Below, one piece after another: positions 25,108-60,098 of a stretch of DNA of 64,000 nucleotides. The translations under genes were made by a program, and so were the position numbers. The notes beneath the pieces were generated by a model. It saw only the letters and a program-made list of their open reading frames with translations, was not told the DNA's origin and made no database searches. Source of the stretch: Kineosporiaceae bacterium SCSIO 59966. Its GTDB lineage: Bacteria; Actinomycetota; Actinomycetes; Actinomycetales; SCSIO-59966. The stretch is from contig CP052876.1 of NCBI GenBank assembly GCA_020881835.1, forward strand, positions 1,054,001 through 1,118,000, written 5' to 3'. The first letter of the stretch is position 1. Each line of letters opens with the position of its first letter.

Positions 25108-30140
<5,033 letters not shown>

Positions 30141-30221
30141 CACACACTCACCGAGTGCTCTGCGTCCACTGTGCGGTTCCCGAGATACGGTCGGCCCACC
30201 ACCGAACGACATCTCCATAGA

Positions 30222-30341
30222 GTTCCGGCGGCCATAGCGTCGGGGAAACGCCCGGTCCCATTCCGAACCCGGAAGCTAAGCCCGACAGCGCCGATGGTAC
30301 TGCGCGGGAGACCGCGTGGGAGAGTAGGACACCGCCGGACA
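30222..30341 (+). rRNA. rrf: 5S ribosomal RNA, copy A
   Basis: About 120 bases. The terminal helix pairs tccggcgg (30224) with ccgccgga (30332-30339). Internal 5S signatures are ggaaacgcccggtcccattccg-like loop A/B, gaacccggaagctaagcccg and gatggtactgcgcgggagac. It follows 23S by about 80 bases. Confidence 0.96.
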
Positions 30342-33222: not shown

Positions 33223-38257
<5,035 letters not shown>

Positions 38258-38338
38258 CACACACTCACCGAGTGCTCTGCGTCCACTGTGCGGTTCCCGA
38301 GATACGGTCGGCCCACCACCGAACGACATCTCCATAGA

Positions 38339-38458
38339 GTTCCGGCGGCCATAGCGTCGGGGAAACGCCCGGTCCCATTCCGAACCCGGAAGCTAAGCCC
38401 GACAGCGCCGATGGTACTGCGCGGGAGACCGCGTGGGAGAGTAGGACACCGCCGGACA
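38339..38458 (+). rRNA. rrf: 5S ribosomal RNA, copy B
   Basis: Same as copy A, with the same terminal helix and internal loops, at an offset of 8,117 bases. Confidence 0.96.
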
Positions 38459-53147: not shown

Positions 53148-53220
53148 CCCAGCCGATCGATGGCGTCGACTGATGGTGACAGGCCTTCGGCTGGCGTCGG
53201 ACTCACGAAAGGAGGGACGG

Positions 53221-54162
53221 ATGCCCGACTACGGACACGACCTGCTGTTCGGCTCGTTCATCACCCCGATCGCCGCTGCGCCGGACCAGGTCGTCGCCCT
53301 GGCACAGCTCAGTGAGCAGGTCGGTCTGGACCTGGCCACCTTTCAGGACCACCCGTACCAGCCGGCGTTCCTGGACACCTGGACGCTGCTGAGCTGGGTC
53401 GCGGCCGAGACCGAACGGATCCACGTCGCAGCGAACGTCACCAACCTGCCGCTGCGGCCCCCGGCAGTGCTCGCCCGTGCGGCGGCGAGCCTGGACCTGC
53501 TCAGCGGTGGCCGGTTCGTGCTTGGCGTGGGAGCCGGTGGCTTCTGGGACGCCATCGAGGCCATGGGCGGCCGCAGGCTCAGCCCCGGTCAGAGCGTCGA
53601 GGCGCTGAGCGAGGCCATCGAGATCATCCGCGGCACGTGGGACACCGAGAGCCGTGACCGGTTCGTCGTCGACGGCACCTACTACCGGGTCAACGGTGCC
53701 AAACGGGGCCCCGCCCCGGCACACGAGATCGGGATCTGGGTCGGCGCCTACAAGCCCCGGATGCTGCGGCTCATCGGCCGTCAGGCCGACGGCTGGCTGC
53801 CGTCGCTCAGCTACACCAAGAGCCTGCAGGACCTCGCCGACGCCAACGCGGTCATCGACACCGCGGCCACGAAGGCGGGACGACCCCCGCGGGCCGTGCG
53901 CCGCCTCCTCAACATCGGCGGGCAGTTCACCGCGCACGCGAGTGACCGGCTGCTCGTGGGCCCGCCGGAGCAGTGGGTCCGCCAGCTCGCCGCCCTGACC
54001 CTGCAGTACGGCTTCAGCGGCTACATCCTCATGGGCGACGACCCATCCACCCTGACGGTCTTCGCCCAGGAGGTCGCTCCCGGCCTGCGCGACCTGGTGA
54101 CGACGCAGCGCGCGGCGTCGGGCCCCGCAGCGGGCTCGAGCCTGCTCGGCGAAGGAAGCTGA
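53221..54162 (+). CDS. LLM-class flavin/F420-dependent oxidoreductase
   Basis: 313 residues from the ATG preceded by AAGGAGGG (7-base gap); an upstream GTG at 53173 lacks a ribosome site. Luciferase-like monooxygenase fold: FQDHPYQP near residue 40, DTWTLLSWVAAETERIHVAA, PAVLARAAASLDLLSGGRFV, LGVGAGGFWDAIEAMGG, HEIGIWVGAYKPRMLRLIG and QADGWLPS. Relatives use F420 or FMN; F420 is common in actinobacteria. Substrate unknown. It is a close paralogue of the first half of the next gene, 72 bases away. Confidence 0.88.
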   Translation: MPDYGHDLLFGSFITPIAAAPDQVVALAQLSEQVGLDLATFQDHPYQPAFLDTWTLLSWVAAETERIHVAANVTNLPLRPPAVLARAAASLDLLSGGRFVLGVGAGGFWDAIEAMGGRRLSPGQSVEALSEAIEIIRGTWDTESRDRFVVDGTYYRVNGAKRGPAPAHEIGIWVGAYKPRMLRLIGRQADGWLPSLSYTKSLQDLADANAVIDTAATKAGRPPRAVRRLLNIGGQFTAHASDRLLVGPPEQWVRQLAALTLQYGFSGYILMGDDPSTLTVFAQEVAPGLRDLVTTQRAASGPAAGSSLLGEGS

Positions 54163-54234
54163 CAAGCCTCCGCAGACTGCCCGGCGTCGTCCTCGTGAGG
54201 ACGAGAAGGTGTGAGGACGGGAAGGAGAACGTTC

Positions 54235-56505
54235 GTGGACTACGGCCACCCCCTGCAGCTCGGCACGTTCATCACGCCGACGAACGAGCACCCGCACACC
54301 CCCGTCGACCTCGCCGTGCTCAGCGAGGACCTCGGCTACGACCTGGTCACCTTCCAGGACCACCCCTACCAGCCCCGGTTCCACGACACCTGGACGCTGC
54401 TGAGCTGGGTGGCCGCCAGAACCACCCGGGTCCACCTGTCCGCCAGCGTGCTGAACGTGCCCATGCGTCCGCCGGCTGTCATCGCCCGGGCGGCAGCCAG
54501 CCTGGACCTGATGTCCCGCGGCCGGGTGGGCCTCGGCCTGGGGGCCGGCTTCTTCTGGGAGGCGATGGCGGCCATGGGCGTGCCCCGTCTCAGTGCCGGA
54601 GAGTCGGTCGACGCCCTGGCAGAGGCGATCCAGGTCATCCGTGGCCTCTGGGCCGCCGGCACCCGCTCGCCGCTCGACCACGTGGGAGAGCACTATCGGG
54701 TGCGGGGCGCTGAGCGTGGCCCCGCACCGGCACACAACATCCCGGTCTGGGTCGGTGGCGGCAGACCGCGCATGCTGCGGCTCATCGGTGAACAGGCCGA
54801 CGGCTGGATCGCGCCTGGAGCCACCACTGGTCTGGGCAGCCTGGCGGCTGGCAACGCCCGCATCGACGCCGCCGCGACCGCCGCCGGCCGCGACCCGCGC
54901 GAGATCCGCCGCGTCGTCAACATCTCGGGACGCTTCACCGCGACCACCGGCGGGCTGCTCGTCGGACCACCGCAGCAGTGGGTCGAGGAGCTGCTGCCGC
55001 GCGTGATCGAGGACGGCGTCGGCATCATCGTCCTCGCCTCCGACGACCCCGAGGCGATACGCCGTTTCGCCGGCGAGGTCGCGCCTGCGCTGCGCGAGGC
55101 GGTCGCCGCGGAGCGCGCCGTGCGCGGCACCTCGGTCGGCACGGTGCCCAGCATCTGGGTGCGGGCGCAGCGGCGGGAGGGCATCGACTACGACCACGTC
55201 CCGAGCGTCCTGCGCGACGGCGCGGTCGAACCAGGTGATGCCGTCTACCCCTCCGTGCGGTCGGGCTACATGCGCGGCGGGTCACCAGGTCTGGTGCTTC
55301 GCGTCAGTGACGCTACCGAGGTCGCCCAGGCGCTGGCCTTCGCCCGCACGCAGCCCGTGCCGCTGTCCGTCCGCAGCGGGGGTCACGGCATCTCGGGCCG
55401 CTCCACCAATGACGGCGGCATCGTCATCGACCTGTCACGGATGAACCGGGTCGAGGTGCTCGACGAGGCCAACCGCCTCGTGCGGATCGAAGCAGGTGCG
55501 CGGTGGGGGCACGTCGCCCAGGCCCTGCAGCCCCACGGGTGGGCGCTGACCTCCGGCGACTACGGCGGCGTCGGCGTCGGAGGCCTGGCCACCGCCGGTG
55601 GCATCGGGTTCCTGAGCCGCCAGCACGGGCTGACCATCGACCACGTCCGCGGCGTCGAGATCGTCCTCGCCGACGGCACCGTGACCCGCGCCAGCGAGAG
55701 CGAGAACCCCGACCTGTTCTGGGCCGTGCGGGGGGCCGGGTTCTCCTTCGGCGTCGTCACCGCGTTCGAGTTCCAGGTCGACGAGGTCGGCGACGTCGGC
55801 TTCGCCCAGCTCGTCTACGACGCCAGCGACACCGCTGACTTCCTGCGCAGGTGGGGCGCCGCCGTCGAGGCCTCCCCGCGCGACCTGACAAGCTTCCTCA
55901 TCATCGGGCGCCCGAGGAGCGGGCGGGTGATCGCCCAGACCATGACGGTCATCGACTCCGAGGACCCCGACACCGTCCTCGACCGGCTTCAGCCCTTCGC
56001 CGGCATCGCGCCACTGCTGGGCCAGCAGGTCCAGCTCACGCCCTACGCCGGCATCGTCACGCCACCCGTGGGGGCGAACGCCGGCCAGGGTGAACCCGTC
56101 AGCCGCAGCGGGCTGCTCGAGCACCTCACTCCCGAGTTCGCCGACGACGCCGCCCGCCTCATCGCCGGTGGCGAGACCTACTGGTTCCAGATCCGTTCCA
56201 TGGGCGGTGCGACGGCCGACGTCGCACCTGGTGCCACCGCCTTCGCCCACCGGTCGGCGAACTTCCACGTCGTCGTCATGGGAGCCAGCCGGGCCCGACT
56301 GGACCCCGTCTGGGACGCCATGCGCCGGCACTTCACCGGCCTGTACGTCAGCTTCGAGACCGACACCCGTCCCGAGCGTGTCCGCGACGCGTACCCGCCG
56401 GGCACGCTGGAGCGGCTGCGCGCCCTCAAGCGCCGCTACGACCCCGACAACGTCTTCCGCGACAACTTCGCCATCGAGCCCGCGCCCCAGCCCGTGGGCC
56501 CGTGA
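54235..56505 (+). CDS. Fusion of an LLM oxidoreductase and a berberine-bridge-type FAD oxidase
   Basis: 756 residues from GTG 54235 (AAGGAG upstream). Residues 1-300 are an LLM domain like the preceding gene (FQDHPYQP, DTWTLLSWVAARTTRVHLSA, LGLGAGFFWEAMAAMG, NIPVWVGGGRPRMLRLIGEQ). After a linker (about 300-345) comes an FAD-binding PCMH domain: VPLSVRSGGHGISGRSTNDG holds the His that links FAD in the family, then GVGVGGLATAGGIGFLSRQH and ENPDLFWAVRGAGFSFGVVT. The BBE tail is RRYDPDNVFRDNFAI. The cysteine used for bicovalent FAD attachment is absent (GDYGGVGVGG), so attachment is probably by His alone. One continuous frame with no stop at the junction. Probably two consecutive redox steps on one substrate; substrate unknown. 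Confidence 0.88.
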   Translation: MDYGHPLQLGTFITPTNEHPHTPVDLAVLSEDLGYDLVTFQDHPYQPRFHDTWTLLSWVAARTTRVHLSASVLNVPMRPPAVIARAAASLDLMSRGRVGLGLGAGFFWEAMAAMGVPRLSAGESVDALAEAIQVIRGLWAAGTRSPLDHVGEHYRVRGAERGPAPAHNIPVWVGGGRPRMLRLIGEQADGWIAPGATTGLGSLAAGNARIDAAATAAGRDPREIRRVVNISGRFTATTGGLLVGPPQQWVEELLPRVIEDGVGIIVLASDDPEAIRRFAGEVAPALREAVAAERAVRGTSVGTVPSIWVRAQRREGIDYDHVPSVLRDGAVEPGDAVYPSVRSGYMRGGSPGLVLRVSDATEVAQALAFARTQPVPLSVRSGGHGISGRSTNDGGIVIDLSRMNRVEVLDEANRLVRIEAGARWGHVAQALQPHGWALTSGDYGGVGVGGLATAGGIGFLSRQHGLTIDHVRGVEIVLADGTVTRASESENPDLFWAVRGAGFSFGVVTAFEFQVDEVGDVGFAQLVYDASDTADFLRRWGAAVEASPRDLTSFLIIGRPRSGRVIAQTMTVIDSEDPDTVLDRLQPFAGIAPLLGQQVQLTPYAGIVTPPVGANAGQGEPVSRSGLLEHLTPEFADDAARLIAGGETYWFQIRSMGGATADVAPGATAFAHRSANFHVVVMGASRARLDPVWDAMRRHFTGLYVSFETDTRPERVRDAYPPGTLERLRALKRRYDPDNVFRDNFAIEPAPQPVGP

Positions 56506-59971: not shown

Positions 59972-60098
59972 CACGAGGTCATGAGCGCCAGCGCGAAGCC
60001 CCGGCTTGCTGGCCGGCAACCCTCCACCGCGGTGGGGTGCCCCGGGTGATGACCTGGCTGGCCGTCCGTTGCGGACGACTGGCAAGCGCGGGCCCGCG
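59972..60098 (+). ncRNA. SAM-IV-type S-adenosylmethionine riboswitch
   Basis: P1 pairs aggtcat (59976-59982) with atgacct (60049-60055). Between them is the family core: gagcgccagcg, agccccggcttgctggccgg and caaccctccaccgcggtgggg. Downstream, gtccgttgcggac forms the added hairpin after P1 that, with the compact core, marks the SAM-IV class. It senses SAM and lies 250 bases before metY, so it should reduce metY-metX expression when SAM is high. The class (SAM-IV versus SAM-I/IV variant) is judged by eye. Confidence 0.85.

Follow-up and report, generated by a model that had tools for sequence, protein, structure and literature searches.

Bacterial luciferase is built from two paralogous LLM (luciferase-like) subunits, LuxA and LuxB, one of which keeps its active site, while the other has lost it and retains the helices by which the two pair. 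The subunit interface is formed by alpha-2 and alpha-3. Other LLM proteins, amongst them FGD1, Mer, Adf and Rv0132c, are hydride transferases that use the deazaflavin F420. The enterocin FAD oxygenase EncM (PDB 3w8w and the 6fy-series) has no LLM domain, nor do the EncM-like actinobacterial FAD oxidases BagK/FevA1 and McrA (the mitomycin radical oxidase, 9r43), which are stand-alone natural-product enzymes. DprE1 and DprE2 carry out an oxidation and a reduction using FAD and NAD(P)H. To my knowledge, a complex joining an F420 hydride-transfer site with a covalent-FAD oxidase would be the first of its kind. The first-pass annotation of the DNA considered here knew of no characterised enzyme in which an LLM domain is fused to an FAD oxidase. 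I likewise found none in the PDB or the open-licence literature, and no open-licence paper on such a fusion.

A fusion of this type is encoded, next to a free LLM enzyme, in a stretch of 64,000 nucleotides (the window) from Kineosporiaceae bacterium SCSIO 59966. The features referred to below, in coordinates of the window, are the following.

53221-54162, + strand: free LLM enzyme (LLM2), 313 aa, Bac_luciferase family (Pfam E 1.7e-47)
54235-56505, + strand: fusion protein, 756 aa, made up of LLM barrel, linker and FAD_binding_4/BBE oxidase
54280-54924, + strand: LLM1, the LLM domain of the fusion (Pfam Bac_luciferase, residues 16-230, E 5e-49)
54472-54525, + strand: helix alpha-3 of LLM1 (residues 80-97)
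55126-55224, + strand: linker of the fusion (residues 298-330), with the conserved motif R-x-R-R-x-G-I-D-Y-D
55288-55692, + strand: FAD_binding_4 domain (residues 352-486, Pfam E 1.8e-33)
55384-55386, + strand: codon of invariant His384, corresponding to the His that links the flavin in EncM
55570-55572, + strand: codon of Val446, at the position of EncM Thr139
56344-56475, + strand: BBE C-terminal motif (residues 704-747, Pfam E 1.1e-6), with Tyr704 and Asn744 invariant

The maximal open reading frame of the fusion (54211-56505, 764 aa) is uninterrupted. A start at GTG 54235, with the Shine-Dalgarno sequence GGAAGGAG at 54220-54227, gives the single frame of 756 residues that had been described, and the three Pfam domains occur along it in order. 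The preceding gene, which has its own Shine-Dalgarno sequence (AGGAGG, 53210-53215), is indeed a separate LLM enzyme carrying the shared motifs noticed at first reading, LLM2 being 57% identical to LLM1. The AlphaFold model of the 756-residue fusion is confident (pLDDT 92, pTM 0.87). A stop or frameshift at 55140-55270 that might split the domains is excluded, and a sequencing artefact or readthrough is ruled out as the source of the fusion, because the same intact, stop-free fusion is found in more than 50 other loci; the linker motif is conserved across the fusions of relatives, even truncated ones. The pair lies after a NUDIX gene, itself after pyrG. Elsewhere the window contains two complete rRNA operons (16S, 23S and 5S; 25109-30340 and 33224-38457) in the same orientation and about 8.1 kb apart, and a SAM-IV riboswitch (59977-60094) that precedes a sulfhydrylase-like (metY) gene, after which comes a gene for a metX-like acetyltransferase. 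No tRNA was found within the 64 kb.

With that of the window included, 48 open reading frames with both halves were found by searching 59 relatives and scanning genome contigs; five further fusion loci came from 296 sampled genomes of the phylum. The hosts are mainly Actinomycetota and Chloroflexota, the actinomycetes including Microbacteriaceae, Promicromonosporaceae, Streptomycetaceae, Pseudonocardiaceae, Micromonosporaceae, Streptosporangiaceae and others. The loci have four architectures. In the first, a free LLM precedes the fusion (the window, Georgenia, Cellulomonas fimi SB and Cellulosimicrobium); in the second, represented by 25 loci, the fusion stands alone; in the third, it is followed by a free LLM (Chloroflexota, Micromonospora, Streptomyces, Pseudonocardia, Kribbella and Tsukamurella). 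In the fourth (five loci), a free LLM is accompanied by an FAD gene whose LLM part has shrunk to some 75-167 residues at the N-terminus. In seven relatives with a lone fusion, no second close LLM was listed genome-wide. The loci L071-L074 and L080 were considered as cases of separate FAD and LLM genes and rejected, as their FAD genes carry truncated LLM remnants; two other apparent cases (L070 and L076) run into contig ends and are uninformative. The genuine fusion beside an unfused paralogue that had been noticed in the window thus belongs to a real, conserved and widespread enzyme family that is apparently uncharacterised. One fusion comes from a contig labelled as a Bacteroidetes MAG (L059); it groups with Chloroflexota, and the contig is probably mis-binned. 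A second fusion partner is seen in L119:1171-3153 (genome G291), where an LLM of the same clade is fused to a hemerythrin HHE domain.

The FAD half, with its FAD_binding_4 and BBE domains, has the EncM/BBE-like fold and is nearest to EncM by both sequence and fold (TM 0.84 by target, 32-33% identity). BagK/FevA1 and McrA also match it (E 1e-58 and 8e-45). His384, Asp442, Arg654 and Tyr704 are present in 42 of 42 FAD halves. As in EncM, the flavin-linking His is conserved without a second link through Cys, the FAD half having no Cys for one. The two differ at the pocket that binds dioxygen in EncM: Thr139 and His138 are replaced by Val446 and Gly445 in 41 of 42 sequences. In the alignment with EncM, Gln652 stands at the position of Glu355, and the invariant Arg654 is new in the fusion family. 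With the oxygen pocket of EncM missing, flavin-N5-oxide chemistry was rejected. I would expect the FAD half to be an ordinary O2-using oxidase, because Val446 stands at the position of Thr139 and the T139V variant of EncM is reported in a review to have oxidase activity (PMC7662398). It might instead be thought an F420H2 oxidase through which the LLM delivers its electrons to O2, so that the LLM would work as a self-recycling dehydrogenase, and a shared electron sink of this kind would fit an FAD half that is invariant while its LLM partner is fused or free. I regard this as highly improbable: enzymes of the EncM/BBE type act as oxidases of organic substrates that bind at the flavin, the FAD half has retained its substrate domain along with invariant Arg654, and the proposal is without precedent.

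The best matches of the LLM halves are FGD1, Mer, Adf and Rv0132c. The Asp-His motif of FGD1 aligns with Asp42-His43, and the stretch surrounding the non-prolyl cis peptide of the F420-dependent hydride transferases can be aligned as well. The LLM halves are only about 30% identical to these enzymes and fall below the cut-off of every listed NCBIfam F420-LLM subfamily (131 bits as compared with 231 for TIGR03560, 127 with 167 for TIGR03619), and LLM1 differs further from them in its fusion to an FAD oxidase. For both LLMs, the best-matching PDB entries belong mostly to F420 enzymes, with Mer, FGD and others high among the matches, together with the less clear 9hav, a "Luciferase family protein".

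The F420 ligase CofE, recognised by the markers TIGR01819 and PF01996 (PF01933 was dropped, since it also matches genomes without F420, such as E. coli), is present in all 49 genomes with the pair. Among the 59 relatives, it occurs in 19 of 19 genomes with this LLM clade and 22 of 40 without it (Fisher p 0.0002, uncorrected for kinship). The genome of the window has both CofD and CofE (G000:C1 723252-724858), and CofD is found in 42 of 48 genomes with the pair; in G046, G030, G065, G067, G088 and G094, CofE is present and CofD was not above cut-off. Neither of the Fo synthase genes, CofG and CofH, turned up in G000 (the genome of the window), G012, G053, G020, G043, G026 or G007. Because of these two sets of missing genes, a supply of F420 is not proven, and the lack of CofG and CofH suggests that some hosts may scavenge F420 or its precursor Fo. 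The same gaps favour the idea that the LLMs use FMN and that the co-occurrence with F420 genes reflects shared taxonomy only. I consider this unlikely in view of the rank of mostly F420 enzymes above FMN enzymes among the PDB matches and the ubiquity of CofE in the host genomes, and the first-pass suggestion of an F420-linked LLM appears, on this evidence, to have been well placed.

The two LLM copies have fared very differently. Lone fusions have lost at most one of 24 signature residues (25 of 25 cases), and free LLMs beside FAD genes, LLM2 of the window included, have lost none (all 31). Fusions beside a free LLM have lost at least four in 21 of 23 cases: 13 moderately diverged fusions lack 1-15 of the 24 and 10 strongly diverged fusions lack 16-21, the residues having been chosen in part because the strongly diverged class is without them. 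For this reason the count was repeated with 61 columns defined from free LLMs alone, giving mean losses of 1.7 for lone, 7.2 for paired and 24.0 for strongly degenerate fusions. The residue sets, fixed in advance, were then applied to five later-fetched loci belonging to another class of the phylum: the fused LLM has lost 13-15 residues, including His43, and the free LLM 0-1. The sequences are related, and the FAD tree yields only three well-supported, fully independent contrasts, too few for a significance test, all of which go in the predicted direction. Degenerate LLM1 domains have dN/dS ratios of 0.36-0.47, as compared to about 0.1-0.29 for LLM2 of the same pairs, and so are relaxed but still under selection. 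Two lone fusions (L056 and L042) have an LLM of the free type, as if a tandem had collapsed through recombination.

The asymmetry resembles that of LuxA and LuxB, except that here the paralogue of the inactive type carries a covalent-FAD oxidase, the likely cofactor is F420 and the association is putative. It is plain in other members of the family; the window pair has only partly diverged. Among the signature residues, LLM1 of the window has the changes N71S, L77M, K177R and P193A and retains Val72 and the catalytic-type Asp42 and His43. I propose that it is at an early stage of drift from catalysis; it may still be active, perhaps with altered specificity, since Asp42-His43 is kept and positions 71 and 177 (and 161) vary in solo LLMs of distant clades. 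These same facts can be read to mean that LLM1 and LLM2 of the window are both active, on different substrates, LLM1 having been retuned by neofunctionalisation and the fusion serving to channel an intermediate between its two halves. Ser71-Val72 matches, letter for letter, the Ser-Val cis peptide of Rh-FGD1, and nearby pairs have dN/dS ratios of 0.28-0.33 for LLM1 and 0.22-0.27 for LLM2. What makes this reading rather doubtful is the graded series towards a fully erased site and a truncated domain, which occurs only beside a free LLM and never in the free LLMs themselves. The evidence that the fused barrel has moved from catalysis to a probable docking role is strong as a pattern in the sequences, and the mechanism is putative.

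What degenerate LLM1 domains keep is helix alpha-3, which has 80% consensus identity, as compared to 7-47% for other segments, and is kept in all degenerate and truncated relatives. The later-fetched loci have PAVLARAAASLDLLSGGRL intact next to a ruined FQDHPYQP. In the five truncated loci, only the half of the barrel from alpha-1 to alpha-3 is left (LLM match E 1e-17 to 7e-10), that is, beta-1 to alpha-3 plus a little of the C-terminal end. The AlphaFold model of one of them (L072, Actinotalea) has a confident N-terminal domain of alternating strands and helices; a fold search with the model matched the FAD half alone. On the FAD tree, a quick tree, the truncated loci group with the strongly degenerate fusions L010 and L055, and their position is consistent with truncation having come after degeneration. 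The pairing face is assigned here from LLM dimers in general. Rh-FGD1, for one, is a compact dimer (PMC5352752). Alternatively, alpha-3 could pack on the FAD domain of its own protein.

The first-pass annotation saw in the two neighbouring genes of the window a tandem duplication followed by fusion of one copy. A recent event of this kind in the window lineage did not survive the tree, in which the window's fused LLM falls with those of Georgenia, Cellulomonas and Cellulosimicrobium, and the free LLMs of these hosts form a cluster elsewhere; forcing LLM1 and LLM2 of the window together is rejected (AU p ~1e-120). Free LLMs nest within fused LLMs in the tree as drawn, the root of which is unsure because of long branches.

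I picture the locus as a two-enzyme redox unit, in which a covalent-FAD oxidase of the EncM/BBE type and an F420-dependent LLM hydride transferase would act on one and the same small organic substrate. The FAD half would oxidise the substrate with O2, yielding H2O2, and the LLM would perform an F420-linked hydride step before or after that oxidation. In many species both enzymes would reside in one chain. Where LLM2 is encoded next door, it would be the working F420 enzyme, and LLM1 would be released from catalysis. Since LLM1 retains the alpha-2/alpha-3 face by which LLM enzymes pair, it probably serves to hold LLM2 at the FAD oxidase, the two LLMs forming a pseudo-heterodimer analogous to that of LuxB with LuxA. 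The channelled two-step reaction that had been ascribed to the fused LLM becomes doubtful beside a free LLM, because it is exactly there that the fused LLM loses conserved residues; the notion of an F420-linked step stands. That an active FAD oxidase is always paired with an active F420-dependent LLM, the fused barrel becoming a LuxB-like dock when a free LLM is present, I judge to be somewhat better than an even bet. The fuller history, in which the fused LLM repeatedly became a non-catalytic dock and finally a half-barrel of pairing helices, recruiting a free F420-dependent paralogue to the oxidase, is plausible but falls a little short of even chances. If true, F420 and FAD would meet in a previously undescribed two-flavin complex, and the family would display the evolutionary steps that led from an active fusion to a docking stub. 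An F420/FAD enzyme could find use in biocatalysis and help to assign function to the many proteins annotated only as "LLM class oxidoreductase", and the series from intact fusion through degenerate fusion to half-barrel stub makes testable the transition from catalytic domain to structural subunit once a paralogue takes over the chemistry.

Attempts to deduce the function of the unit from its neighbours were abandoned, as the sole recurrent neighbour is a divergently transcribed regulator, MarR (about 12 loci) or HxlR (8 loci), which suggests that the unit is induced by a small molecule. A search of the window for homologues of the regulators tested gave none. These neighbours bear on the possibility of an epimerase-like unit, in which the FAD half would oxidise an alcohol to a ketone and the LLM, with F420H2, would reduce it back with other stereochemistry, as in DprE1/DprE2. 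An FAD_binding_4 oxidase and a hydride-transfer LLM are the right pieces, and the FAD half does match DprE1, if weakly (E 9e-16), but sugar-nucleotide or cell-wall genes do not recur nearby and regulators of the MarR/HxlR type are more typical of a response to xenobiotics, so that I hold this to be quite improbable. In one Sphaerobacter MAG, a gene that by eye is OsmC/Ohr-like (L070:2411-2827) directly follows the FAD and LLM genes.
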